From NCBI GenBank assembly GCA_025351165.1, contig JANXWK010000016.1, positions 1 to 64,000 on the forward strand: DNA of 64,000 nt, given 5' to 3'. Within the stretch, counting starts at the first letter, position 1, and each line of letters begins with the position of its first letter. Positions 44,783-47,291 of the stretch are shown here, piece after piece. The position numbers and the translations under genes are program-made. Below the pieces are notes generated by a model, which saw nothing but the letters and a program-made list of their open reading frames with translations, did not search any database and had not been told where the DNA came from. The DNA comes from Hyphomicrobiales bacterium. GTDB lineage: Bacteria; Pseudomonadota; Alphaproteobacteria; Rhizobiales; Beijerinckiaceae.

Positions 44783-45790
44783 TTAAGCAACTTTTGAAAC
44801 TGTATTGAAAACATCTGTACGAATACGTTTATCCTGCCCAAGCCATATGGATACTGTTAATTTTGCATCCGTATCCTTGTTTGGCACCAGGGCCTTGTAC
44901 TCCACTGATCTAAGCCCTGCATCACTCATGAAGTTCTCAATCTCACACCGTTCAAATCCAAGCCTCCTATGGGCGTGGTGTGCCCGCAGTGTTTCTTCCG
45001 TATGGGGAGCAAAATCAACGATGACCATGCGTCCGTTTGGCATCAAGGTACGGGCAGCTTCGCGAAGAGCCCGGGCGGGATCATCAAGATAATGCAGTAC
45101 CTGATGCACAATGACCAGATCGTAGGCATCACGCTCAATGGGAAGTGCATAAATATCACCCTGGCGCAATTGCACATTTTTAACCCCAGCCCGTTCCAAA
45201 TTTGCCCGCGCAACTGAGAGCATGGCAGGGGTTTGATCTACCCCCACGGCACGCGTGGCGTAAGGTGCAAGAACTTCAAGCATACGGCCTGTACCTGTTC
45301 CCAGATCCAGCAGGGCAGAAATAGGCTTTGAACCCACTAACTGGGTAACAGCCGCCTCAACCCGTGCATCGCCTATATGAAGCGAGCGAAGTTTATCCCA
45401 GTCTTTAGCCTGTGTTGCAAAATAATCGGCAGCTTGCGCTGTACGGGTGGCACGCGTTTCAACCAAGCGTGCGCGATCTGCAAAAAACACCTCATCATTA
45501 CTGTTAAGCTGAGTAATGGCATTGGATGCTGTTTGAGCTGCATTATTATCTGCTAGTTTAAAAAATGCCCATGCCCCTTCGCGGTGACGCTCTACAAGAC
45601 CTGCCTCAACCAGTAATTTCAAATGACGTGAAACACGTGGCTGGCTTTGACCCAGAATTGCCGTAAGTTCTGTAACAGTGAGTTCAGCCTCAGACAAAAG
45701 TACAGTAAGGCGCAGTCGTGTTGGCTCTGCCAGCGCTTCTAGCACAGTAATCATTTTACTAAATGGGAGCCTGGTATCAAGTTCTGACAT
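44783..45790 (-). CDS. ArsR-family regulator fused to a SAM-dependent methyltransferase
   Basis: 335 residues from the ATG at 45790. The N-terminal winged helix (about 1-95) shows LAEPTRLRLTVLLSEAELTV and QSQPRVSRHLKLLVEAGLVE, a standard ArsR recognition helix. No Cys-rich metal-binding motif is seen in it. The C-terminal domain (about 130-320) is a class I methyltransferase with LLDLGTGTGRMLEVLAPY, GVDQTPAMLSVA and LVIVHQVLHYLDDPARA. Its place directly before metF and metH suggests that it senses SAM or SAH and controls methionine synthesis. That is inference; the sequence shows only the fusion and the neighbours. An upstream ATG at 45844 would begin before a good signal and is not preferred. 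Confidence 0.88.
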   Translation of the reverse strand: MSELDTRLPFSKMITVLEALAEPTRLRLTVLLSEAELTVTELTAILGQSQPRVSRHLKLLVEAGLVERHREGAWAFFKLADNNAAQTASNAITQLNSNDEVFFADRARLVETRATRTAQAADYFATQAKDWDKLRSLHIGDARVEAAVTQLVGSKPISALLDLGTGTGRMLEVLAPYATRAVGVDQTPAMLSVARANLERAGVKNVQLRQGDIYALPIERDAYDLVIVHQVLHYLDDPARALREAARTLMPNGRMVIVDFAPHTEETLRAHHAHRRLGFERCEIENFMSDAGLRSVEYKALVPNKDTDAKLTVSIWLGQDKRIRTDVFNTVSKVA

Positions 45791-45842
45791 AAAGATATGT
45801 TTATACGTAAAGTTTAATCTAGGCAACGGGATTTTTTGACGC

Positions 45843-45868
45843 AAAAAAAGGCTGCAGAAGCAGCCTTT
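45843..45868 (-). terminator. strong intrinsic terminator upstream of the ArsR-MT/metF/metH operon
   Basis: AAAGGCTGC and GCAGCCTTT form a perfect 9-bp stem with an AGAA-type loop. Read leftward it is followed by seven T. It lies 52 bp before the ArsR-methyltransferase start and 118 bp after the DUF1192 stop. It either ends the DUF1192 message, ends a small RNA, or acts as an attenuator for the met operon. Confidence 0.88.
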
Positions 45869-45986
45869 GAAAGTTTACACAGGAGACATCAAACAAAGTG
45901 GAATGAACCACTCATAACCCTAACGAAAGGATCAATACTGTTAACCTAAACAAAAATGGTTAAAAAAGAATAGGAATGAGCCTGAT

Positions 45987-46172
45987 TTAAATCTTGAAAA
46001 AGCTGTCTGCGACATTTCGTCCAGTATTTTTTAAACCTATGGCTGTTTCAATTCTTTCAATCTCTGTTCTGAGCATTTCCACTGTGTTTTCCAACTCTTC
46101 AACAGACATGTAGTCGAGTGAGTCACCAATTTGATGTTTTACTTTTGATCTTTTGGGTTCATCATCTGACAT
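45987..46172 (-). CDS. DUF1192 family small protein
   Basis: 61-residue protein matching the DUF1192 pattern: LDYMSVEELENTVEMLRTEI, then the coiled-coil helix IERIETAIGLK and the conserved ADSFFKI end. The function is unknown. It is divergent from the quinone oxidoreductase gene, an arrangement common in Rhizobiales. AAAGGAGCT just upstream of its ATG is a strong ribosome-binding site. Confidence 0.88.
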   Translation of the reverse strand: MSDDEPKRSKVKHQIGDSLDYMSVEELENTVEMLRTEIERIETAIGLKNTGRNVADSFFKI

Positions 46173-46256
46173 TATTTCAGCTCCTTTAAAAAGCTACATT
46201 TATCACAAAACCCCAAAGCTAAAAGAGCAAACAGAATAACAGGCGAGAGAGCAAAT

Positions 46257-47291
46257 ATGATGAAAACAAGCATGATGAAGGATTTAAACTGTGATTTGCC
46301 CTCCACCATGAATATTATTGCCATCGAAAAACCAGGCGGGCCAGAGGTCCTCCAAATGCAGACCCGGCCTATGCCATATCCTGGCATAAACGAAATTCTG
46401 ATCAAAGTTTGTGCTGCCGGTATTAACAGGCCCGATGTTTTTCAACGACTTGGCAAGTATCCGCCCCCTATTGGCGCTCCAGATTACCCAGGCCTTGAAG
46501 TGGCAGGCCATATTGTAAAAATTGGCACATCTGTCACAAGCCATAAAGTTGGTGATAACGTCTGCGCGCTTCTTAGTGGTGGTGGCTATGCAGACTATGC
46601 AATTGCCAATCCTGTAACAACATTACCAATTCCTAGCTGCTTGACCTACATTGAAGCGGCAGCCCTGCCTGAAACTGTTTTTACCGTATGGAGTAACCTG
46701 TTTGACATTGGCAGGCTTGTAAAAGATGAATGGCTTTTAGTGCATGGTGGAACATCCGGCATTGGAACAATAGCAATACAAATGGCAAAAGCTTTTGGTG
46801 CTAAAGTCATCGCAACAGCAGGATCTGAAACAAAATGCCAGTTTTGCCTCAAGCTTGGTGCAGATTATGCTGTTAACTATCGCACAAGCGATTTTGTTGA
46901 TGCTTGCAGGTCAACAACTGGACAAAAAGGTGTCAACTTAATATTGGACATGGTTGGAGGCAGCTATACAGCTAAAAATCACGAGGCTGCAGCCATGGAC
47001 GGGCGCATCATTCAGATTGCAACACTGCAAGGTTCGAAAGTCGAGATTAACCTGAGCCAGATTATGAAAAAACGCTTGTGGCATACAGGATCGACCCTGC
47101 GTTCAAGACCAGACATTGAAAAACAGACCATAGCCAAATCCGTTGAAAAATATATATGGCCCCTGATTGAAAAAGGCCTCATACGCCCGGTCATTGATAC
47201 TGTCCTGCCTCTAAGTAAAGCAGCAAAAGCTCACCGCTTGATGGAAAAGAGCGATCATATTGGCAAAATAATACTTTCAACAGAGAGTTGA
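46257..47291 (+). CDS. NAD(P)H-quinone oxidoreductase (zinc-independent MDR family, PIG3 type)
   Basis: 344-residue medium-chain dehydrogenase/reductase. The N-terminal GroES-like fold (AAGINRPDVFQRLGKYPPP, the PIG3-type signature; VGDNVCALLSGGGYADYA) is followed by the Rossmann domain with LLVHGGTSGIGTIAIQMAK. Zinc-binding residues of alcohol dehydrogenases are missing, as in quinone reductases. The start may be 46257 or the ATG at 46308 (MNIIAIEKPGG), which is closer to family length; the extra residues from 46257 are not conserved. Divergent from DUF1192. Confidence 0.9.
   Translation: MMKTSMMKDLNCDLPSTMNIIAIEKPGGPEVLQMQTRPMPYPGINEILIKVCAAGINRPDVFQRLGKYPPPIGAPDYPGLEVAGHIVKIGTSVTSHKVGDNVCALLSGGGYADYAIANPVTTLPIPSCLTYIEAAALPETVFTVWSNLFDIGRLVKDEWLLVHGGTSGIGTIAIQMAKAFGAKVIATAGSETKCQFCLKLGADYAVNYRTSDFVDACRSTTGQKGVNLILDMVGGSYTAKNHEAAAMDGRIIQIATLQGSKVEINLSQIMKKRLWHTGSTLRSRPDIEKQTIAKSVEKYIWPLIEKGLIRPVIDTVLPLSKAAKAHRLMEKSDHIGKIILSTES

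Follow-up and report, generated by a model that had tools for sequence, protein, structure and literature searches.

A diverged BjrC1505-type small RNA gene, probably trans-acting, beside DUF1192 in a Hyphomicrobiales bacterium

The locus and its predicted RNA

We analysed a 64,000-nucleotide stretch of DNA (the window) from a Hyphomicrobiales bacterium, in which a gap free of genes lies between a DUF1192 gene and an ArsR-methyltransferase (ArsR-MT) gene. The DUF1192 gene (45987..46172, minus strand; 61 aa; Pfam PF06698, 61.9 bits against a cut-off of 25.5) is a conserved upstream neighbour of the RNA described here, and a PIG3-type quinone oxidoreductase gene (QOR; 46257..47291, plus strand; TIGR02824, 464 bits) is a conserved divergent one. 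The downstream neighbour, ArsR-MT (44783..45790, minus strand; Pfam HTH_5 and methyltransferase domains), is lineage-specific. Its open reading frame as listed begins at a TTG at 45844, adjoining a terminator; the ATG at 45790 appears to be the likelier start, which would place this terminator in front of the ArsR-MT gene. Measured from the stop of DUF1192 (45987, minus strand) as far as the stem of the terminator (45868), the gap is 118 nt long, in agreement with the roughly 120 nt given in the first-pass annotation, and 144 nt when the terminator and its T run (to 45843) are included. No open reading frame of 50 aa or more overlaps 45845-45986 on either strand. The window is AT-rich (41-47% GC), and at 2.29 Mb its genome falls below most of the relatives listed in size.

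The structured element that the first-pass annotation placed in this gap is indeed real, and its sequence points to an RNA gene of about 90 nt with its own terminator on the minus strand (45844..45936, approximate ends), within a match to the Rfam family RF02356 (45842-45970, 44.7 bits) and a match to our own model R1 (45842-45942, 57 bits). The 5' end would lie near 45935. Folding places a 7-bp hairpin 1 (TGATCCT/AGGGTTA) at 45915..45934, with a helix that covaries across 38 sequences, and a hairpin 2 at 45896..45913 with the loop UUCAUU, where the commonest family loop is CUCCUGU. The stem GAGTGG/CCACTT of hairpin 2 (45913-45896) had already been recognized and was taken for the first of the element; it is present, but hairpin 1, missed at that stage, precedes it. 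A linker follows (45869..45895), which aligns with the family linker UGUUUGACGCCUCCCUGUU and contains, at 45886-45880, the previously noted TCTCCTG stretch; as UCUCCUG it is a candidate target-binding seed. The element closes with an intrinsic terminator (45843..45868) detected by a terminator scan, with a covarying stem and the sequence AAAGGCTGC-TTCT-GCAGCCTTT at 45868-45847. Its perfect 9-bp stem and its seven T are as first described, but three of the T lie within the stem and four after it.

The fold of 151 nt is unusually stable (z = -4.29; 1 of 200 dinucleotide shuffles equally stable). Two terminator-like sites were found in 45700-46050, against 0.2 in shuffles, and two in the wider interval 45400-46400, against 1.1. 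Between the RNA and DUF1192, the same scan of the window revealed no terminator on the minus strand.

A diverged copy of BjrC1505

The original description of BjrC1505 is reportedly that of Madhugiri and others, 2012. The Rfam model of this family, RF02356, matched the window copy end to end (model positions 1-140) at 44.7 bits (E 3.4e-7). Since this is below the Rfam gathering score of 50 bits, we term the copy a diverged ortholog and not an Rfam-listed member; at gathering score two tRNAs were the sole Rfam matches in the window, and RF02356 surfaced at a permissive threshold. The next-best RF02356 match in the same genome (22.2 bits, E 0.055, G000:C27:61573-61690) is probably due to chance. 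We further built R1 from 32 relatives, modelling the RNA alone, with no promoter, and excluding the window and its genus sister. R1 gave the window copy 57 bits (with a rough E of 2.6e-13) and the next place in the genome 14.7. The copy of the genus sister reaches 74.5 bits with RF02356 at the place matching the window DNA (74% identity, E 4.8e-10). This Rfam match is preceded at 6 nt by a match to DUF1192 and followed at 312 nt by one to rcdA.

The window copy thus shares with BjrC1505 an end-to-end alignment, three stem-loops, the linker, the terminator and the DUF1192/QOR neighbourhood. It differs in its score of 44.7 bits, in the loop UUCAUU instead of CUCCUGU, in the linker UCUCCUG instead of CCUCCCUG, in a CtrA-type site without its 5' half, and in the distance of 118 kb to rcdA.

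Across 199 genomes, the window's own included, RF02356 matched 152 at E <= 0.1, with 118 over the cut-off; 47 genomes, some of them complete genomes of the same family, had no match at E <= 0.1. In an even sample of the class that included the window's own family, 13 of 289 genomes passed the cut-off, so the RNA family looks centred on Hyphomicrobiales (Rhizobiales). Caulobacter vibrioides, taken as a control genome, was without a match at E <= 0.1. Named genomes scanned with a pattern returned at least 118 stretches, the matches listed including Bradyrhizobium, Methylobacterium, Mesorhizobium, Phyllobacterium, Bosea, Roseibium and Stappia, and a contig of Chelatococcus composti also carries the sRNA. 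Extra RF02356 matches, possibly paralogs, lie away from the main one at G059:C439:1919-2061, G090:C163:11340-11454 and G052:C3:296794-296931. A plasmid collection searched with two family copies yielded no match.

Covariation of the helices

Covariation among relatives was found for hairpin 1 and the terminator in 38 sequences. From 151 sequences, 38 were picked by dissimilarity; one alignment held the window and 37 of them, the incomplete L105 being dropped, and a second omitted the window and L066 as well as the poorly aligned L101, L150, L156 and L169. The structure given above pairs in 94.8% of the cells of the 38-sequence alignment, against 90.0% in shuffles. Both sides were altered in 36 cells; shuffles gave 10.1 (none of 500 reached 36), and sliding the structure gave 4-12. 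No pair of hairpin 2 was changed on both sides; the covariation comes from hairpin 1 and the terminator. RNAalifold recovered the three helices, in shortened form, from the same 38-sequence alignment. Hairpin 1 also differs in sequence between the window and the sister, yet its pairing is kept.

A CtrA-type site in front of the RNA in relatives

We observed a conserved motif upstream of the RNA in relatives. TTAA-N7-TTAA with at most one mismatch occurs there in 140 of 144 distinct loci, 73 of them exact (153 loci had enough flank, 144 were left after removal of identical upstream sequences, and the relatives are not independent). The next two 55-nt windows upstream held such a site in 2 and 0 loci, and mononucleotide shuffles gave a mean of 6.9 and a maximum of 15 sites (exact sites, mean 0.44). 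The exact sites lie within 70-79 nt of the core, and the bases between and around their halves vary. The pattern used places a -10-like element (TATNAYT-like) mostly 11 nt behind the site (51 of 139 loci); at 9-14 nt after the site it is present in 76 of 139, against a mean of 34 and a maximum of 46 in shuffles. From this spacing we infer a start about 7 nt past the -10-like element, just before hairpin 1, which would put the CtrA-type site at about -39 to -25. With the motif conserved ahead of the RNA, the Rfam model seems to include promoter DNA.

The window retains this arrangement in part. A 3' half-site TTAA, followed by CCAT, survives at 45960..45963 (minus strand), at the same place relative to the predicted start as the second TTAA of relatives, and the place of the 5' half (45971-45974) reads CCTA; the sister reads TTGA-N7-TTAA. 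A candidate -10, TAGGTT (45943..45948, minus strand), matches the position of the relatives' TATNAYT and was not reported by a consensus promoter scanner. Because the 5' half is missing, CtrA control may be weak or lost in the window. Its genome carries a clear ctrA (NF045991, 421 bits).

According to published studies, promoters activated by CtrA have, as a rule, a CtrA site at -35 (PMC11264516), and the CtrA consensus is given for Hyphomonas (PMC7200025) and Methylosinus (PMC12403871). Predicted CtrA sites or motifs upstream of rcdA are likewise described there for alphaproteobacteria, S. meliloti and agrobacteria (PMC2877005, PMC3616915, PMC10469942), together with several rcdA start sites in agrobacteria (PMC10469942). 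Counting against our main reading, the Hyphomonas neptunium study states that rcdA is not regulated by CtrA (PMC7200025). In our own set, a second TTAA-N7-TTAA occurs 60-400 nt past the sRNA core, before or in early rcdA, in 24 loci exactly and in 49 with at most one mismatch (n=145; a count with no shuffle control).

Gene neighbourhood in relatives

The usual order in relatives is QOR / DUF1192 / sRNA / rcdA. Among 120 hits over the cut-off, rcdA lies downstream on the same strand within 3 kb in 99 (median 227 nt) and DUF1192 upstream on the same strand within 2 kb in 82 (median 67.5 nt); both counts are lower bounds, as they cover the matches listed, with some DUF1192 matches of genomes without the sRNA left out. 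Either neighbour accompanies 110 of these hits and neither, among the matches listed, accompanies 10. The corresponding figures for 30 weaker hits are 13 with rcdA, 9 with DUF1192, 18 with either and 12 with neither. Where named loci offered at least 1 kb downstream, rcdA was present in 88 of 92, and QOR was present in 36 out of a set of 51 short-flanked loci that counts three places twice.

The downstream gene is DUF1465, that is, RcdA: the 110-aa fragment of the sister matches Pfam PF07323 at 128 bits and NCBIfam ProtaseAdptRcdA at 145.8 bits (full-length cut-off 170), and it also matches the PDB entry 3ctw, named 'RcdA'. RcdA is an adaptor of CtrA proteolysis. In the window genome, DUF1192 and QOR are kept beside the RNA and rcdA lies 118 kb away (C29:163838-164296). 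ArsR-MT, metF and metH were found at E <= 1e-5 in none of the 157 family loci whose flanking stretches were examined (a few of the 157 are the same place twice). Given their absence there and the distance of rcdA, the methionine neighbours in the window most likely result from a rearrangement, and the position of the RNA beside methionine genes looks like an accident of the window lineage.

Candidate seeds and target search

The linker GACGCCTCCCTGTT is present in 125 of 150 loci, which were chosen by the linker core. The named loci and the promoter, alignment, loop/linker, pairing and neighbour-gene sets were all picked by this core motif (the 51-locus set was picked by family score), so the invariance of the linker is to some extent a product of the selection, and loci that are related do not count as independent. 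Hairpin-2 loops contain CTCC, TCCT or CCTG in 110 of the 150 loci and lack such a seed in 40; CTCCTGT itself, found in 85, is thus common and not universal. In the window the loop seed CUCCUGU is missing (UUCAUU) and the linker seed UCUCCUG is kept. As linker and loop are complementary to Shine-Dalgarno sequences, repression in trans would be the natural reading.

Pairing of the linker with the start regions of neighbouring genes was no better than in mononucleotide shuffles (rcdA, 139 regions, mean z -0.21; DUF1192, 71, 0.35; QOR, 90, 0.36), and pairing with the ctrA start region of the same genome was not striking (-22.8 against -18.8, sd 3.0). Start sites complementary to the linker numbered 59 in 120 relatives, against 4 for the reversed pattern, an excess that Shine-Dalgarno bias alone can explain. 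Among the 30 of these 59 sites whose loci were examined, no gene recurred beyond one genus, and many had only a short open reading frame after the ATG; the sole repeated start belonged to two loci of one genus (L229 and L230) and precedes what we take to be an acyl-CoA-dehydrogenase-like gene. The window's own genome holds two seed sites. One stretch, CAGGAGACA...ATG at G000:C16:34576-34591, is complementary to the window linker seed and presumably precedes SufB, judging from the look of the protein; it is a lead, not evidence.

Discussion

By sequence evidence the element is a real sRNA gene that is not linked to methionine. We consider it probable that it is a trans-acting sRNA gene of about 90 nt, a diverged ortholog of BjrC1505 with a CtrA-type promoter and anti-Shine-Dalgarno C/U segments. 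The RNA polymerase would start just before hairpin 1, at a promoter with its -35 region covered by TTAA-N7-TTAA, and transcription should therefore rise when CtrA~P is high. The RNA would end at its own terminator and expose stretches rich in C and U, which in most copies are the CUCCUGU loop of hairpin 2 and the linker GACGCCUCCCUGUU; these could pair with G-rich Shine-Dalgarno regions of target mRNAs to lower translation. In the window lineage the RNA retains its fold, its terminator and UCUCCUG, has neither the loop seed nor the 5' half of the CtrA-type site, and is parted from rcdA. The sequences themselves show homology, a covarying structure, the promoter motif and the gene order, and we infer transcription, the start site, CtrA control and Shine-Dalgarno pairing. 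The orphan small RNA aimed at ribosome-binding sites that the first-pass annotation had offered as one option is borne out in homology and anatomy, through the family match, covariation, the linker and the relatives' promoter motif; its action on targets keeps the weaker standing just given. Against this reading count the window score below gathering, the missing 5' half of the window's CtrA-type site, the 47 of 199 genomes without a match, the 10 of 120 hits with neither neighbour among the matches listed, the 40 of 150 loops without a seed, the linker pairing that did not exceed shuffles and the lack of a gene recurring beyond one genus in the 30 target sites examined.

The alternatives overlap, and the likelihoods we attach to them need not add up to a whole. 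That the RNA is mainly a processed 3' end of the DUF1192 transcript, not made from its own promoter, is in part compatible with our main reading. As a second source of the RNA, the long DUF1192 3' end suggested earlier fits the upstream position of DUF1192 in 82 of 120 hits, the lack of an intervening terminator in the window scan and the poor match of the window promoter to consensus, but relatives carry the CtrA-type site and the -10-like element before the RNA, and family hits also occur without DUF1192 among the matches listed, which makes this origin unlikely as the main one. The relation to rcdA can also be read in cis, the family RNA being a CtrA-controlled leader of rcdA that terminates prematurely and now decays in the window after separation. 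In its favour, 99 of 120 hits have rcdA downstream on the same strand, with a median distance of 227 nt, and papers describe CtrA motifs upstream of rcdA (PMC2877005, PMC3616915) and several agrobacterial rcdA starts (PMC10469942). However, the conserved linker pairs with rcdA start regions no better than shuffles do, rcdA may own a further CtrA-type site beyond the RNA (exact in 24 of 145 loci and with no more than one mismatch in 49, no shuffle control), and some over-cut-off hits lack rcdA among the matches listed; we regard a leader of rcdA as quite improbable.

A leader or attenuator of the ArsR-MT/metF/metH operon, also raised in the first-pass annotation, would agree with the position of the RNA, which immediately precedes that operon in the same orientation. 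This agreement is confined to the window: none of the 157 loci carries those genes in the flanks examined at E <= 1e-5, the usual downstream neighbour is rcdA, as in the sister, the family match spans the whole element, and none of the Rfam riboswitches scores at gathering level in the window. Such a role is very improbable, and with only two tRNAs at that score and no met genes at family loci we rejected a methionine attenuator or riboswitch as the identity of the element. The window copy may, on the other hand, be a relic of the sRNA that no longer functions, as the missing loop seed, the missing half of the CtrA site and the score below the Rfam cut-off might suggest; but stems, terminator and linker seed are kept, and hairpin 1 has changed relative to the sister and still pairs, so that we think decay to a relic has little likelihood.

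Our preferred reading, a trans-acting RNA of the BjrC1505 family, invites comparison with other alphaproteobacterial sRNAs as described in the available text of the respective papers. CcnA of Caulobacter has a CtrA box in its promoter and a CCCC loop that pairs with GGGG in 5' regions, but is 182 nt long and lies at the replication origin (PMC8959179); we liken the two by description, not by homology. EcpR1 of Sinorhizobium is a conserved rhizobial trans-acting sRNA, roughly 100 nt long and linked with the cell cycle, but it lies between divK-pleD and rpmG and has two stem-loops (PMC4414408). GsrN of Caulobacter, compared by description only, has a C-rich loop and G-rich targets but is bound up with the sigma factor of the general stress response and with that response itself (PMC5869019). 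We rejected GsrN as the identity of the element on account of this stress role (PMC5869019), and EcpR1 and GspR because the papers place both at other loci.

A review traces the BjrC sRNAs of Bradyrhizobium to inventories that joined computation with experiment (PMC7143759). For Methylosinus sporium, a transcript map compared with Rfam names EcpR1 and ar45, and 'BjrC' does not occur in its main text, which would count against our main reading if that strain carries the gene (PMC12403871). We found no functional study of BjrC1505 or RF02356 in the open-access papers searched, among which the names occur in a single one, in a table of Herbaspirillum predictions, and the accessible texts joining rcdA, sRNA, CtrA and DUF1465 tie no sRNA to the rcdA locus. 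The family is already known as an Rfam entry but has been little studied.

As a pattern of sequence, the CtrA-rcdA link is well supported across the order. Whether BjrC1505 moreover belongs to the core of the cell cycle in Hyphomicrobiales, as an sRNA that CtrA turns on at a promoter between DUF1192 and rcdA and that represses a set of mRNAs through its anti-Shine-Dalgarno seeds in the CtrA phase of the cycle, we judge to be evenly balanced. If this is true, part of the 'CtrA control of rcdA' predicted in publications would be the promoter of the BjrC1505 RNA. The core, strongly conserved across many families of the order, the near-constant CtrA-type site and the linkage to rcdA would give the family a testable role in the cell cycle and are a reason to re-read the CtrA sites of rcdA, and the window copy, as a natural variant, may show which parts of the RNA and of its promoter can be spared.
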